DNA of 64,000 nucleotides from Zhongshania aquatica (lineage in GTDB: Bacteria; Pseudomonadota; Gammaproteobacteria; Pseudomonadales; Spongiibacteraceae), in NCBI RefSeq assembly GCF_027257955.1, contig NZ_JANZNQ010000011.1, positions 62,001-126,000 of the forward strand, read 5' to 3'. The notes under the pieces were generated by a model, which did not search any database, was not told where the DNA came from, and was given only the letters and a program-made list of their open reading frames with translations. Shown piece by piece: positions 58,212 through 62,851 of the stretch; position 1 is the stretch's first letter; each line of letters opens with the position of its first letter. Made by a program: the position numbers and the translations under genes.

Positions 58212-59834
58212 CTACTGTGTGGGGTAAGGGCTCCAGTTTTTCTGGTCTAAGGTAATAAAGAAATCCTCTTCAATTTTTATCACGGTACTTCCCTCGTTTT
58301 GCGAAACAAGCGCGGTTTGGGGGAGATTGGAAGAAAGCTGGGCCGCGCTGTAGCTCTTAGTGTCAAACACCTTCTGCTCGAAAATGTTAGCGAGTAATTG
58401 CGAGATAGCTTCATGGCTACTTGCTTCACTGATATGTGAAACGCCATCGCTGCGCTGCATTTCCGGCCCGATAAGCTTGACGGCCACTGGAATGTGGGTA
58501 ATAGACGGCGAAGGGAGCTCGCGCATACCCGAAATTTGCATTTTGTCACCGCGCAGGCCAGCGCCATGCTCGGGTATTAGCACCACGACAACATTGCGGC
58601 CTGACTTTTCTAGTTGGTCGATGAAGGTTGCTAGCTCGTCAAAAAGAAGTTTCGCCCGTTGCTGATAACTAGCAACCCCAAATACCGCCGGTTTATTAAG
58701 AATACGGTTACCGTCGTGCAGACTGGTAGTGTTATACAGCATGGCCACCTTGTCGCTCGATGAGTTGGTTCTCGCTTTCCACCACGCGTTTAACATTCCC
58801 GCATCGCTATAGATCAGGGCGCCCGTGAAATCTTTCTGAGTGGCTTCTATCCCGGTGTGTGGAAACGGTGCTGAACTAATTCCACTATAGCGTTGGGTCT
58901 TCTCTAGGAATGAATCAAATACGCCGTCATGGTTTAACATCAATTCTTTGTCGTAACCTAATTGCTCTAGTTGATGAAAGAGCTGGCATTCGGGTTGAAC
59001 TGGGCCATATAGCGTGCTGTGTTCTGCTTGCCCGCAGGTCGCGCGGCTCAAACGAATAACCGCGGGTCCACTATAGCTTGTCGCTGAATTAAATTGGTCG
59101 AATACAATATCGAATTTTTGAAATAGTGGATGATTGTCTAGCTTCGCTAGATTGATGTCGTCGACACCCAGGGAGCAAATACTCAGTAATAAAACATCGA
59201 AAGGGGCAGTTTGCGTATCGGTGCTTGGGAATTGGGTAACGCGGGATTTCTCGCTTTGGAAGAAGTTATCTAAATAGTTGCTTAATGCCGCATTGCTGGT
59301 GTCGTTTGGTGCGCTTGCTGCGCCATTTTTTGTTGAGCTCGCTACAGGTGTGGCAATGTTTATGGTCGTTGGCCCCGAGCTTAATGAGCTGATGCCACAA
59401 ACGATGATGGCCAGAAGCACCACCGAGGTTACCCGAAATACCTTTGCGGCGAAGTGGTATGTGATTGCTGCTGCGACAGCAGCCATAAGCATATTTAAAG
59501 AGATAAAACGACTGAGTAGCTCGATGATATAACTGAACTCGAAGGTCAGAACTTGATCCATTTGCGCGACTAGACGAGACAGCGGAGGCATGTAAGAGTC
59601 GTAATGGAGTAGCAGTAGACCGACTGGTATAGCCGCTATATGGCGCGCGAGATTGCCATAGTAGTTGCGGATGGGTAGTAATAAGCATGCTGCGAAGGTG
59701 AAGTTTTCAAGGCCGTGAAAATCTAATAGTCCCTGAAAGTACAAGCCAATTTTGCAAATAAAATACAGATTCCACCAGCCAAGACCAGAGGGAAGAACAA
59801 GGTCTTCAATAGGTGTATTCGTCTTGGCTTTCAT
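58212..59834 (-). CDS. bcsG: cellulose phosphoethanolamine transferase BcsG
   Basis: A 540-residue inner-membrane enzyme. Five N-terminal membrane segments (about 20-155) are followed by a periplasmic alkaline-phosphatase-fold domain. The nucleophile is Ser221 in SICSLGVDD, matching the Ser in the equivalent CSL motif of E. coli BcsG. Metal-binding candidates lie in ATCGQAEHS and PEHGAGL. It decorates nascent cellulose with phosphoethanolamine. It overlaps bcsF by 4 nt on the minus strand. Confidence 0.92.
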   Translation of the reverse strand: MKAKTNTPIEDLVLPSGLGWWNLYFICKIGLYFQGLLDFHGLENFTFAACLLLPIRNYYGNLARHIAAIPVGLLLLHYDSYMPPLSRLVAQMDQVLTFEFSYIIELLSRFISLNMLMAAVAAAITYHFAAKVFRVTSVVLLAIIVCGISSLSSGPTTINIATPVASSTKNGAASAPNDTSNAALSNYLDNFFQSEKSRVTQFPSTDTQTAPFDVLLLSICSLGVDDINLAKLDNHPLFQKFDIVFDQFNSATSYSGPAVIRLSRATCGQAEHSTLYGPVQPECQLFHQLEQLGYDKELMLNHDGVFDSFLEKTQRYSGISSAPFPHTGIEATQKDFTGALIYSDAGMLNAWWKARTNSSSDKVAMLYNTTSLHDGNRILNKPAVFGVASYQQRAKLLFDELATFIDQLEKSGRNVVVVLIPEHGAGLRGDKMQISGMRELPSPSITHIPVAVKLIGPEMQRSDGVSHISEASSHEAISQLLANIFEQKVFDTKSYSAAQLSSNLPQTALVSQNEGSTVIKIEEDFFITLDQKNWSPYPTQ

Positions 59835-60028
59835 GATTCCGCCTTGGTTTCTTCGTTCAAGGATTCGGTGTTTTTGTTGGTCTGATAAGGCTTGAGGAAT
59901 CTCGGCTTGATAAGGTACTTACGGATAAACTCTATTACAAATTGGCTAAAATCACGGAGTGTAAAACCAATAAACATACCGACGCTAAGTGACACGATCA
60001 GCGTAATTAAAAAGCTTCTGATATCCAT
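59831..60028 (-). CDS. bcsF: cellulose biosynthesis protein BcsF
   Basis: A 65-residue single-pass membrane protein: MDIRSFLITLIVSLSVGMFIGF anchor, then a basic cytosolic tail. BcsF helps recruit BcsE and BcsG to the cellulose synthase. Size and position between bcsE and bcsG identify it. It starts at ATG 60028, 16 nt after bcsE, and overlaps bcsG by 4 nt. Confidence 0.85.
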   Translation of the reverse strand: MDIRSFLITLIVSLSVGMFIGFTLRDFSQFVIEFIRKYLIKPRFLKPYQTNKNTESLNEETKAES

Positions 60029-60043
60029 GGATTTATTGTTTTT

Positions 60044-61657
60044 TCATCCCTGATTGATTACATATGGATTGGCAAGTGTCACCGAAATACGTTTATTGCC
60101 GCCGTTTTTCTGATTCTTTTCTGGGTTACTGGCTAGTAACTTTTGGCCAATATCGGCTGGAATACCGTCGGTAGACAGGTCAATAAGTTCTAGCTCGGCG
60201 ATGATGTCGTCTGCATCGTGAATGATAGATTGCGAGCCGAAGGAGTCCTGCACGGGTAATAGTAGTGAGTTCTTCAAGGCAATAGCAACATTGTTAAGAC
60301 GACAAGCGTGCAAAAATATGTAGATGAATCCTCGACAAACAGTGATTAGATCGCCGTCACGTTTGATATGGCAGAGATTGAGCGATTGCTCCATTGTTAT
60401 GCCGCGTAGAGGTTCAAACCGCACTAAAATATGTTCGATGCCGGAGTATCGCTGTGCATCCATTGTCTTGCCAACAGTTGCGGCGAAGGTGTGGGGTTCT
60501 GCATAGCCCCGGTAATCAGACGTTTGTCTGCTCTCTAGAAGCCCGTACAATGTTGGCGGCAGTTTGCGCCGGAGTTGGTCGCCTCGTATGGCTTCGATTT
60601 GGCTGATTAATCGCGTAGTGGTGATAATGTAAGGGATAATTTGGCTTGCCCCTGCCTTCAGTAAGAACTCTTCATCTGCGTAACGAAGGCACTGTACATT
60701 TTCCCGTATCAGTATTTTAATTTTGTGCTTGTAACGAGATCGCAGTTGATAGGTCATTGTGGCGAGTTCTACCACTTCGCTCGGCGAGGCACAGGCAAAG
60801 ATCACCGTTGCGTTGCCAAGCTCCTCGATCGAATTCATAATCAGATTGTTACTGGCAACGCTTACGCTAACTTGTAGTTCCGATGATATTTCATTGGCGA
60901 TACTAGTAGTGGTATATATCCCGCCATTCGATACGTTGCTATCTGGTGAGAAATCACTATGCGCTGTGTGCTCTGCAGGAATGTCCATAGCTTCTAGGGA
61001 GCCTACTGTGTTTGTAACGAGCAGGTATTCCTGGTCTGCAACAACACTGTTTGAAGAGCCCCAAAAGTGAATAAAGTAGCGGTAGTGGCTGGCATCAAGG
61101 GCGTAGAAACTAGTGAGACCAGACAAATAACTATTAGAGTGCAGTGCAGCGGACTCTAAGGTTTTAATTTCACCGTGACAAAGAAACAATACGCTGTGAT
61201 TGTATTTCCTAGCCCATTTCTGCCAAGCAGCTAGTACGTTGTTTAGCTTGGGATGCTGGTCACTAGGAAAGGCGGACGCTTTGATGAATATAATGTAAAG
61301 TGCAGGCTTAGCAGGCGACATCTTTTTTAAATCGCGTAACAAGGCGCTAGCTGTTGCGGGAATTTTTTGCTCTGGGTCATGCCAAAAATGTACGCGTTTA
61401 CATTTTTCACTAAGGCATTTTTCAAGTAATTGTTCGGCGTCATCATCATACCCGCGAAAGAGGTCCTCCGGTGAGCAAAGGCCGATGAGGTGAGGCGCGT
61501 CATTGCGATTGCAGATACTGTCGATCAACGCGGGGGCATGTTTTTTCCCTGCGCTTAGGCAGAAATACACACTACCGGGTGTCATTTCAGTGCCACTTAC
61601 CGGGATATTTGCCAGCCCCAGCCAGTGGGGCTTGATGTCAACGTTAGTATCTAGAAT
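60044..61657 (-). CDS. bcsE: cellulose biosynthesis c-di-GMP-binding protein BcsE
   Basis: A protein of about 537 residues (513 from the first ATG at 61585). It has a degenerate receiver-like middle (VIFACASPSEVVELATMTYQLRSRYKHKIKILIREN) and a GGDEF-like C-terminal domain. The c-di-GMP motif RDGD (R409-D412, counted from ATG 61585) matches RxGD of E. coli BcsE. The coding signal continues 24 codons upstream of ATG 61585 (including a PHWLGLANIPVSGTEM stretch like the BcsE N-terminus) with no ATG, GTG or TTG. An AAAGGA site lies 8 nt before an in-frame ATT at 61657, which I propose as start. Confidence 0.85.
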   Translation of the reverse strand: MLDTNVDIKPHWLGLANIPVSGTEMTPGSVYFCLSAGKKHAPALIDSICNRNDAPHLIGLCSPEDLFRGYDDDAEQLLEKCLSEKCKRVHFWHDPEQKIPATASALLRDLKKMSPAKPALYIIFIKASAFPSDQHPKLNNVLAAWQKWARKYNHSVLFLCHGEIKTLESAALHSNSYLSGLTSFYALDASHYRYFIHFWGSSNSVVADQEYLLVTNTVGSLEAMDIPAEHTAHSDFSPDSNVSNGGIYTTTSIANEISSELQVSVSVASNNLIMNSIEELGNATVIFACASPSEVVELATMTYQLRSRYKHKIKILIRENVQCLRYADEEFLLKAGASQIIPYIITTTRLISQIEAIRGDQLRRKLPPTLYGLLESRQTSDYRGYAEPHTFAATVGKTMDAQRYSGIEHILVRFEPLRGITMEQSLNLCHIKRDGDLITVCRGFIYIFLHACRLNNVAIALKNSLLLPVQDSFGSQSIIHDADDIIAELELIDLSTDGIPADIGQKLLASNPEKNQKNGGNKRISVTLANPYVINQG

Positions 61658-61665
61658 GTCTAATG

Positions 61666-61671
61666 TCCTTT
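61666..61671 (-). promoter_or_regulatory. ribosome binding site deciding the bcsE start
   Basis: AAAGGA on the minus strand (TCCTTT on plus), 8 nt before the in-frame ATT at 61657-61655. No comparable site precedes the first ATG at 61585. Confidence 0.5.
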
Positions 61672-61871
61672 ACTACCCGCCTGCTATTAGCGACGCGCTA
61701 GGTAGCAATGTGAATTGCAAGCCGTTGTTTGCGGAAATAGTAAACTATTTCAATGAAATGGTGTAGCGATGAGGCTTTGAATATGGAACCTTAGGCCGAA
61801 TATCGGTAATCTGTCTTTTAGCAGTTAACACGCTGCATGTGAACGTTGAGCGAAAAGCAAGGAACACCGTA

Positions 61872-62075
61872 TTGTCGATTAATAGTCGTGATGTAAGTAC
61901 TGCCTATAACGCATTTGGGGATGACTCTTCTGGGTATCAGGAGTTAAGTGAGGGCGAATACGTGTTGTCTATCCTCCTTAAATGGCCTGCCCTAGCGCAA
62001 ATGAACGGATTAGCGGCGAATGACGGGGTATCAGGCTTAAAAGGAAATAGCGAAATAAGCAAGGAAGAATCTTAG
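61872..62075 (+). CDS. bcsR: cellulose biosynthesis protein BcsR
   Basis: A 67-residue protein whose second half (GYQELSEGEYVLSILLKWPALAQMNG) matches the conserved end of E. coli BcsR, a regulatory partner of BcsQ. TTG 61872 is chosen because AAGGA lies 8 nt upstream and the size fits; an upstream in-frame GTG at 61839 lacks a site. Its stop overlaps the bcsQ start by 1 nt, so the genes are translationally coupled. Confidence 0.75.
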   Translation: MSINSRDVSTAYNAFGDDSSGYQELSEGEYVLSILLKWPALAQMNGLAANDGVSGLKGNSEISKEES

Positions 62076-62851
62076 TGCCTGTTGTCATTGTTTCTGGTTT
62101 TCGGGGAGGGGTTGGTTCGACCACAATAGTGTCGAATCTAGCATCTGCCTTGCAGCGCGCGGATTGCCAGACGCTCTCTATCGATCTGCACCCCGATAAT
62201 CAACTTTGTGTGCACTACGGTGTAGATCAGGAAATTCCAACAGGTTGGGCGCAGGCGATTGTCGACGGTGACGACTGGAAGCGATGTGCATTTCAGTCAG
62301 CGGATGGTCGTCGAATTTTGCCCTTCGGGGAGTTAAGCCATTTTCAGTTCGCGCAGTTTCGAGAAGCATTGCCTGCGTCAATCGCCGCGATGGCTAAAAT
62401 ATTAGCGCCACAGCCTGACGAATGGCTGCTAGTCGATATGCCGGTAGATCGTCATCGCGCGTTGGAAGAAAACACGATTACCAGACTTTACCAAGAAATT
62501 TATGCCTTGGCTGACATTACCTTATATGTGATCAATCCAGAGCTTGGTTGCTATCGGCTGTTAAAACAGGCGGCGTTAAATGGGGAATCCCTTAGTGACA
62601 AACAGCTCTATGTCATAAATGGCGTAAATACCAACTCCAGTTTGAGTATGGATATTGAATTGTTGTTGCGGGCGGAGTTTTCCCCCCAGATGCTACCCGT
62701 GTCTATTCATCAAGATACCGCCTTGCCTGAGGCAGCGGCGTTTATGGCTGCAGTGAGCGAATACATGCCTGACAGCAAATCAGCAAGCGATTTTCACTCT
62801 TTAGCCTTATGGTTATTGGGTCGATTTGGTAAGGGCGGCGCTGGTGAGTAA
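62075..62851 (+). CDS. bcsQ: cellulose biosynthesis ParA-like ATPase BcsQ
   Basis: A 258-residue MinD/ParA-type ATPase. The P-loop is GFRGGVGSTTI (about 7-17), lacking both lysines of the deviant Walker A (KGGxGKT) as in E. coli BcsQ, where it is RGGVGTTT. A later DMPVD segment is the Walker B site. It localises the cellulose synthase to the pole. The start is GTG 62075 with AAGGAAG upstream. It overlaps bcsA by 8 nt. Confidence 0.92.
   Translation: MPVVIVSGFRGGVGSTTIVSNLASALQRADCQTLSIDLHPDNQLCVHYGVDQEIPTGWAQAIVDGDDWKRCAFQSADGRRILPFGELSHFQFAQFREALPASIAAMAKILAPQPDEWLLVDMPVDRHRALEENTITRLYQEIYALADITLYVINPELGCYRLLKQAALNGESLSDKQLYVINGVNTNSSLSMDIELLLRAEFSPQMLPVSIHQDTALPEAAAFMAAVSEYMPDSKSASDFHSLALWLLGRFGKGGAGE

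Follow-up and report, generated by a model that had tools for sequence, protein, structure and literature searches.

The window, by which we mean the whole 64,000-nucleotide stretch of Zhongshania aquatica DNA analysed here, comes from a 107-contig draft genome and carries a bcs locus in which bcsE forms an operon with bcsF and bcsG downstream, while bcsP, bcsQ and bcsA are divergent (Table 1). The bcsE product was identified by its match to the Pfam profile PF10995, which scored 267.8 bits against a cut-off of 25; with the BcsE equivalog model TIGR03369 the score was 233.1 bits, just under the cut-off of 244.65. A search against solved structures matched E. coli BcsE from residue 106 on only and so has no bearing on the N-terminus, which is the subject of this analysis. 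On the divergent side, in the region 61839-62075 (+ strand), TTG 61872 rather than GTG 61839 is probably the start of bcsP.

Table 1. Features of the bcsE region, in positions of the window
Feature	Position	Strand	Evidence
Probable bcsE start codon ATT (codon 0)	61655..61657	-	ATT/ATC in 4/4 orthologues; coding constraint starts there
Shine-Dalgarno (SD) sequence AAAGGA	61666..61671	-	exactly 8 nt before ATT; GGA equally spaced in 4/4
Tandem in-frame stops TAG TAA bounding the start region	61670..61675	-	window sequence
bcsE, 537 codons counted from ATT	60044..61657	-	PF10995, E 2.3e-79
Stretch of 24 codons preceding the first ATG, with the sequence ILDTNVDIKPHWLGLANIPVSGTE	61586..61657	-	pN/pS 0.35 over codons 1-23
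First in-frame ATG, probably internal Met25	61583..61585	-	weak or no SD; inside Pfam match
GAAATAGTTTACTATTT / GAAATAGTTTAnTATTT, conserved cis element, part of an imperfect palindrome, bcsE-bcsP intergenic	61735..61751	-	one match per genome, 4/4
bcsF, ATG start	59831..60028	-	ATG in 4/4; PF11120 20.9 bits, below gathering score 23
bcsG, ATG start	58212..59834	-	ATG in 4/4; PF11658, E 1.5e-190
bcsP, probable TTG start	61872..62075	+	TTG with SD in 4/4; NCBIfam BcsP 22.3 bits, below cut-off 55
bcsQ, GTG start	62075..62851	+	GTG in 4/4; TIGR03371 over cut-off

The bcsE frame of the window reads TAG TAA AGG ACA TTA GAC ATT CTA GAT ACT AAC ... GAA ATG. The preliminary description of this DNA had proposed that the gene starts at the ATT, with AAAGGA 8 nt before it, and both were found where described (61657-61655 and 61671-61666). 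It had also stated correctly that the frame is open to an in-frame stop. The open part, however, extends for 28 codons before ATG 61585 and not for 24, the latter number being the distance from the ATT to the ATG. None of the 28 codons is ATG, GTG or TTG, again as claimed, and counted from the ATT no frame contains an ATG between -120 and +71. In the window and in one close orthologue (G013), where a TAA likewise stands directly before AGG, just four codons separate the stop from the ATT or ATC, and none of the four is ATG, GTG, TTG, CTG or another AUN codon. The AGG among them is one base from ATG but is part of the SD sequence in both genomes. If the ATT is the start, the first residue of ILDTNVDIKPHWLGLANIPVSGTE would be fMet.

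Of the 18 Zhongshania genomes searched, 14 yielded a BcsE, as did 17 of the 21 genomes of the family, and a wider survey added five among 390 order-level genomes and one among 369 class-level genomes, giving 23 genomes in total. The bcsE type of the window is present in four of the 18 Zhongshania genomes: that of the window itself and those designated G013, G006 and G005, whose proteins are about 69-72% identical to the window BcsE (71, 70 and 69%, respectively, over the whole protein). G013 is a metagenome-assembled genome, 84% complete and 7% contaminated. The remaining 19 proteins are at most 34% identical to that of the window in the 18 cases with a reported value (all but G458), and a further search of contigs for relatives of the window type returned only the G013 locus again. 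In a tree of the 23 BcsE proteins the four fell on one branch with support of 100/100. For this tree each protein was trimmed to begin where its search match begins; the tree contained three long branches and drew a warning about joined long branches, and only the four-member clade was used from it. Because the four bcsE genes form one clade, a single origin of the ATT/ATC start is likely. One genus holds very different bcsE types (28-34% versus about 70% identity to the window), with none found in four of its 18 genomes (G000-G017), a distribution suggesting that the bcs cluster has been lost or transferred.

Codon 0, the position of the ATT, is ATT in the window, G006 and G005 and ATC in G013. 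Eight nucleotides before it stands AAAGGA in the window, G013 and G005 and TAGGGA in G006, so that all four genes have a conserved AUU or AUC codon with an SD sequence in register. The computed pairing of this sequence with the anti-SD ranges from -5.3 (the window) to -5.6 kcal/mol across the four, versus -3.0, +1.2, -1.8 and -2.0 kcal/mol at the ATG in the window, G013, G006 and G005, respectively. No canonical start occurs in any of the four from the upstream stop through codon 13, and within these limits, set by the nearest in-frame stops, all of them share a near-cognate codon at codon 0 only; the next such positions are codons 14, 17 and 24, the last being the ATG. The sole canonical codon between stop and ATG in the four genes is an in-frame GTG at codon 14 of G006, which lies inside the constrained region described below. 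Retention of ATT/ATC, taken alone, fits an internal isoleucine equally well, and only the missing upstream start argues otherwise. In the other 19 of the 23 BcsE genes an in-frame ATG, GTG or TTG precedes the beginning of the matched region or lies at most two codons away from it, which makes it a candidate start. In the sister-type genes (G009, G003, G014; L006, L007, L012) a conserved AAGGA stands 14 nt before the ATG; so long a spacing is unusual and is perhaps another route to weak initiation.

The residues ILDT at the beginning of the N-terminal stretch are invariant in the four orthologues. The bases TAGA just after the ATT are also the same in all four, and because of this a nucleotide-level element may be present there. 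The stretch upstream of the ATG had been said to fit the known BcsE N-terminus. This holds from residue 11, counted from the ATT, where the PF10995 match begins, upstream of ATG 61585; the first ten residues, in contrast, have no clear counterpart in the BcsE types at 34% identity or less.

Coding constraint was assessed as pN/pS, pooled over pairwise comparisons of the four orthologues, with column permutations. The value was 0.35 over codons 1-23, where none of 2000 permutations was as low, 0.32 over codons 24-50 and 1.35 over codons -4 to -1, which places the onset of constraint at codon 0, with a resolution finer than about 12 codons not being significant. Over codons 1-12 pN/pS was 0.36, a value reached or undercut by 5 of 1000 permutations, and over codons 1-6 it was 0.20, not a significant value (68 of 1000). 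For codons 1-12 the two other frames gave 1.13 and 1.12, for codons 1-23 they gave 1.17 and 1.42, and in the short intervals 1-6 and 1-8 one of them stood at about 0.8. Since codons 1-12 are constrained and the other frames are not, the start of translation most likely lies well upstream of codon 12, where the ATT/ATC is the sole codon that fits; as codons 1-6 alone are not significant, the exact start codon rests on the boundaries and the register of the SD sequence. With synonymous differences close to saturation (pS 0.76), codon 0 could easily have become ATG and yet did not, an absence that carries little weight because it concerns one clade of four. With ATT or ATC in four of four, GGA in register and purifying selection on codons 1-23, the proposed ATT start is well supported by the comparison. 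Lack of conservation of the upstream codons in relatives had been named as an observation that would speak against it, and in the four these codons are conserved.

The first alternative is a start at ATG 61585, with the 24 upstream codons untranslated or a relic. This ATG is kept in all four genomes, no canonical start comes before it except in G006 (the GTG at codon 14), and a gene finder restricted to ATG, GTG and TTG would pick it. Nevertheless, the codons upstream of it are under a coding constraint that the other two frames do not show, the Pfam match starts before it and its SD sequence is weak or absent in all four, which makes this start quite improbable. A later near-cognate start is less probable still. 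Codon 14 (CTG, ATA, GTG and ATT) and codon 17 (ATC, ATT, ATC and ATA) are both near-cognate in all four genes and lie near the place where the sister BcsE proteins begin, the ATG of G009, G003 and G014 aligning with about codon 11. For codon 17 the spacing to a G-rich stretch would allow this to act as an SD sequence, whereas the same stretch directly adjoins codon 14 and is too close to do so. Against both stand the constraint on codons 1-12 and the invariant ILDT upstream of them. That a sequencing or assembly error, a frameshift or readthrough from an upstream ORF provides the real start would fit the draft state of the genome but is very improbable, given the agreement of four genomes on this region, the tandem stops before the ATT of the window and the absence, within 120 bases upstream and in any frame, of an ATG, GTG or TTG at a position common to all four.

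A conserved RNA structure around the start was considered and rejected: RNAalifold gave 6 pairs, none of them changed on both sides, and a strong hairpin that the window forms around +26 to +44 had no counterpart in register in single folds of the other three sequences. In the bcsE-bcsP intergenic region, the element at 61735-61751 was found with 0 mismatches (1 allowed) in the four genomes, and the reversed pattern used as a control gave 0 matches in the four; it is possibly a locus-specific promoter or operator. A promoter scan of 61600-62000 returned no sigma-70-like site (0.7 expected from shuffles), and a terminator scan of the same interval gave a single hit, a terminator-like site of the + strand (0.2 expected).

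Other genes of the genus served as controls. In the 18 Zhongshania genomes infC reads GGAG...ATT in 17 and GGAG...ATC in one, and in none of the 18 is the upstream stop followed by a canonical start ahead of the conserved N-terminus. Since infC of the genus reads ATT or ATC, such starts plausibly work in Zhongshania. All 20 copies of bcsF, bcsG, bcsP, bcsQ and bcsA at the four loci have a canonical start where one is expected, that of bcsA being GTG in two loci and ATG in two. Non-AUG codons are kept at all four loci at the start of bcsP (TTG) and bcsQ (GTG) and at the probable start of bcsE (ATT/ATC). The pcnB gene was tried as a second case of an ATT start and gave no sign of one, as canonical candidates lie upstream in 18 of 18 loci, one per genome.

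The reading that we favor, with a probability of roughly 87%, is that translation of bcsE in this Zhongshania clade starts at a near-cognate AUU codon (AUC in one species) with a conserved SD sequence 8 nt upstream, and that BcsE output is kept low by IF3 discrimination. The four sequences from one clade directly establish the sequence of the start region, its conservation, the coding constraint, the register of the SD sequence and the lack of any canonical start either ahead of the conserved N-terminus or at it; from these we infer the use of the ATT/ATC codon, a low yield, sensitivity to IF3 and a physiological role. In such a mechanism, AUU would be decoded by the initiator fMet-tRNA with a mismatch at the third position, the conserved SD sequence would help initiation, and IF3, which opposes initiation at AUU and AUC, would lower the rate of BcsE production. 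By analogy with AUU and AUA sites of other genes whose output was measured (PMC13009471), it is reasonable to suppose that the ATT limits bcsE expression. Scarce BcsE would suit a c-di-GMP effector that brings BcsRQ to a low-copy cellulose synthase complex via BcsF, as in E. coli. There a BcsE2R2Q2 complex is reported to be recruited by a BcsF dimer through the N-terminal domain of BcsE (PMC11470070), and cellulose synthase is termed a low-copy system in a 2020 paper (PMC7439463). Because E. coli BcsE serves a low-copy system through this recruitment, keeping BcsE scarce is plausible here as well.

The rare ATT/ATC start that bcsE appears to have in this small marine Zhongshania group thus probably keeps BcsE scarce and is of a kind that ordinary gene finders would miss. 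One restricted to ATG, GTG and TTG would start the window bcsE 24 residues short, at the beginning of the domain that binds BcsF in E. coli. As a conserved AUU case, bcsE may be a gene whose dose is set by the fidelity of initiation. BcsE being a c-di-GMP effector of cellulose export, the output of biofilm matrix would then be tied to the balance between IF3 and ribosomes. A search of the open-access literature by title and abstract opening returned no account of a non-AUG start codon of BcsE, and among titles on Zhongshania and cellulose there was nothing on bcs.

The closest parallel is infC, whose start codon is AUU, AUC or AUA. Like bcsE, it has a near-cognate start after a good SD sequence, no canonical start nearby and the same ATT/ATC swap within the genus. 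The two differ in that the product of infC, IF3, discriminates against its own start codon and so regulates its own synthesis, whereas we know of no action of BcsE on initiation or role as an initiation factor. An infC-like autoregulation of bcsE, the loop of which needs IF3 acting on its own start, is therefore unsupported. It is improbable that cellulose secretion as a whole is gated by initiation fidelity, with bcsP TTG, bcsQ GTG and bcsE ATT/ATC as graded weak starts of which bcsE would be limiting and IF3-gated. In that case BcsE might feed back on its own start as a functional echo of infC, a thought prompted by the reported binding of ribosomal protein S10 to the N-terminal domain of BcsE in E. 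coli (PMC7439463).

Switches from AUG to AUU are very rare, with 1 of 61,358 ancestral AUG starts reported in one survey (PMC5622118). In E. coli pcnB an inefficient AUU start limits expression, according to the title of Binns and Masters 2002 (cited in PMC13009471); the start is of the same kind as in bcsE, but pcnB of Zhongshania has canonical candidates, so that this use is not shared by that gene. The Staphylococcus aureus genes cvfC1 (AUU), ccpN (AUA) and citZ are reported to give about 10% of the AUG yield in poor medium (PMC13009471). As in bcsE, the near-cognate starts and SD sequences of cvfC1 and ccpN are conserved across species in what are likely regulatory genes, but these starts were mapped by Ribo-Ret and reporters and have extended SD sequences (PMC13009471), whereas that of bcsE was deduced from comparison and its SD sequence is ordinary. 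The GTC start of Streptomyces sigR is described as repressed by IF3 and as setting the SigR:RsrA ratio (PMC5472188). It resembles the bcsE start in being rare, conserved within a genus, suited to setting how much of a regulator there is relative to its partner and, according to the authors, misannotated in the available genomes; it differs in its codon, in a very strong SD sequence and in the experimental demonstration of IF3 dependence (PMC5472188). The SD sequence of bcsE is good but not extended like that of sigR or those of the S. aureus sites. As a regulatory gene with a probable clade-conserved near-cognate start, bcsE belongs in the company of infC, pcnB, sigR, cvfC1 and ccpN.
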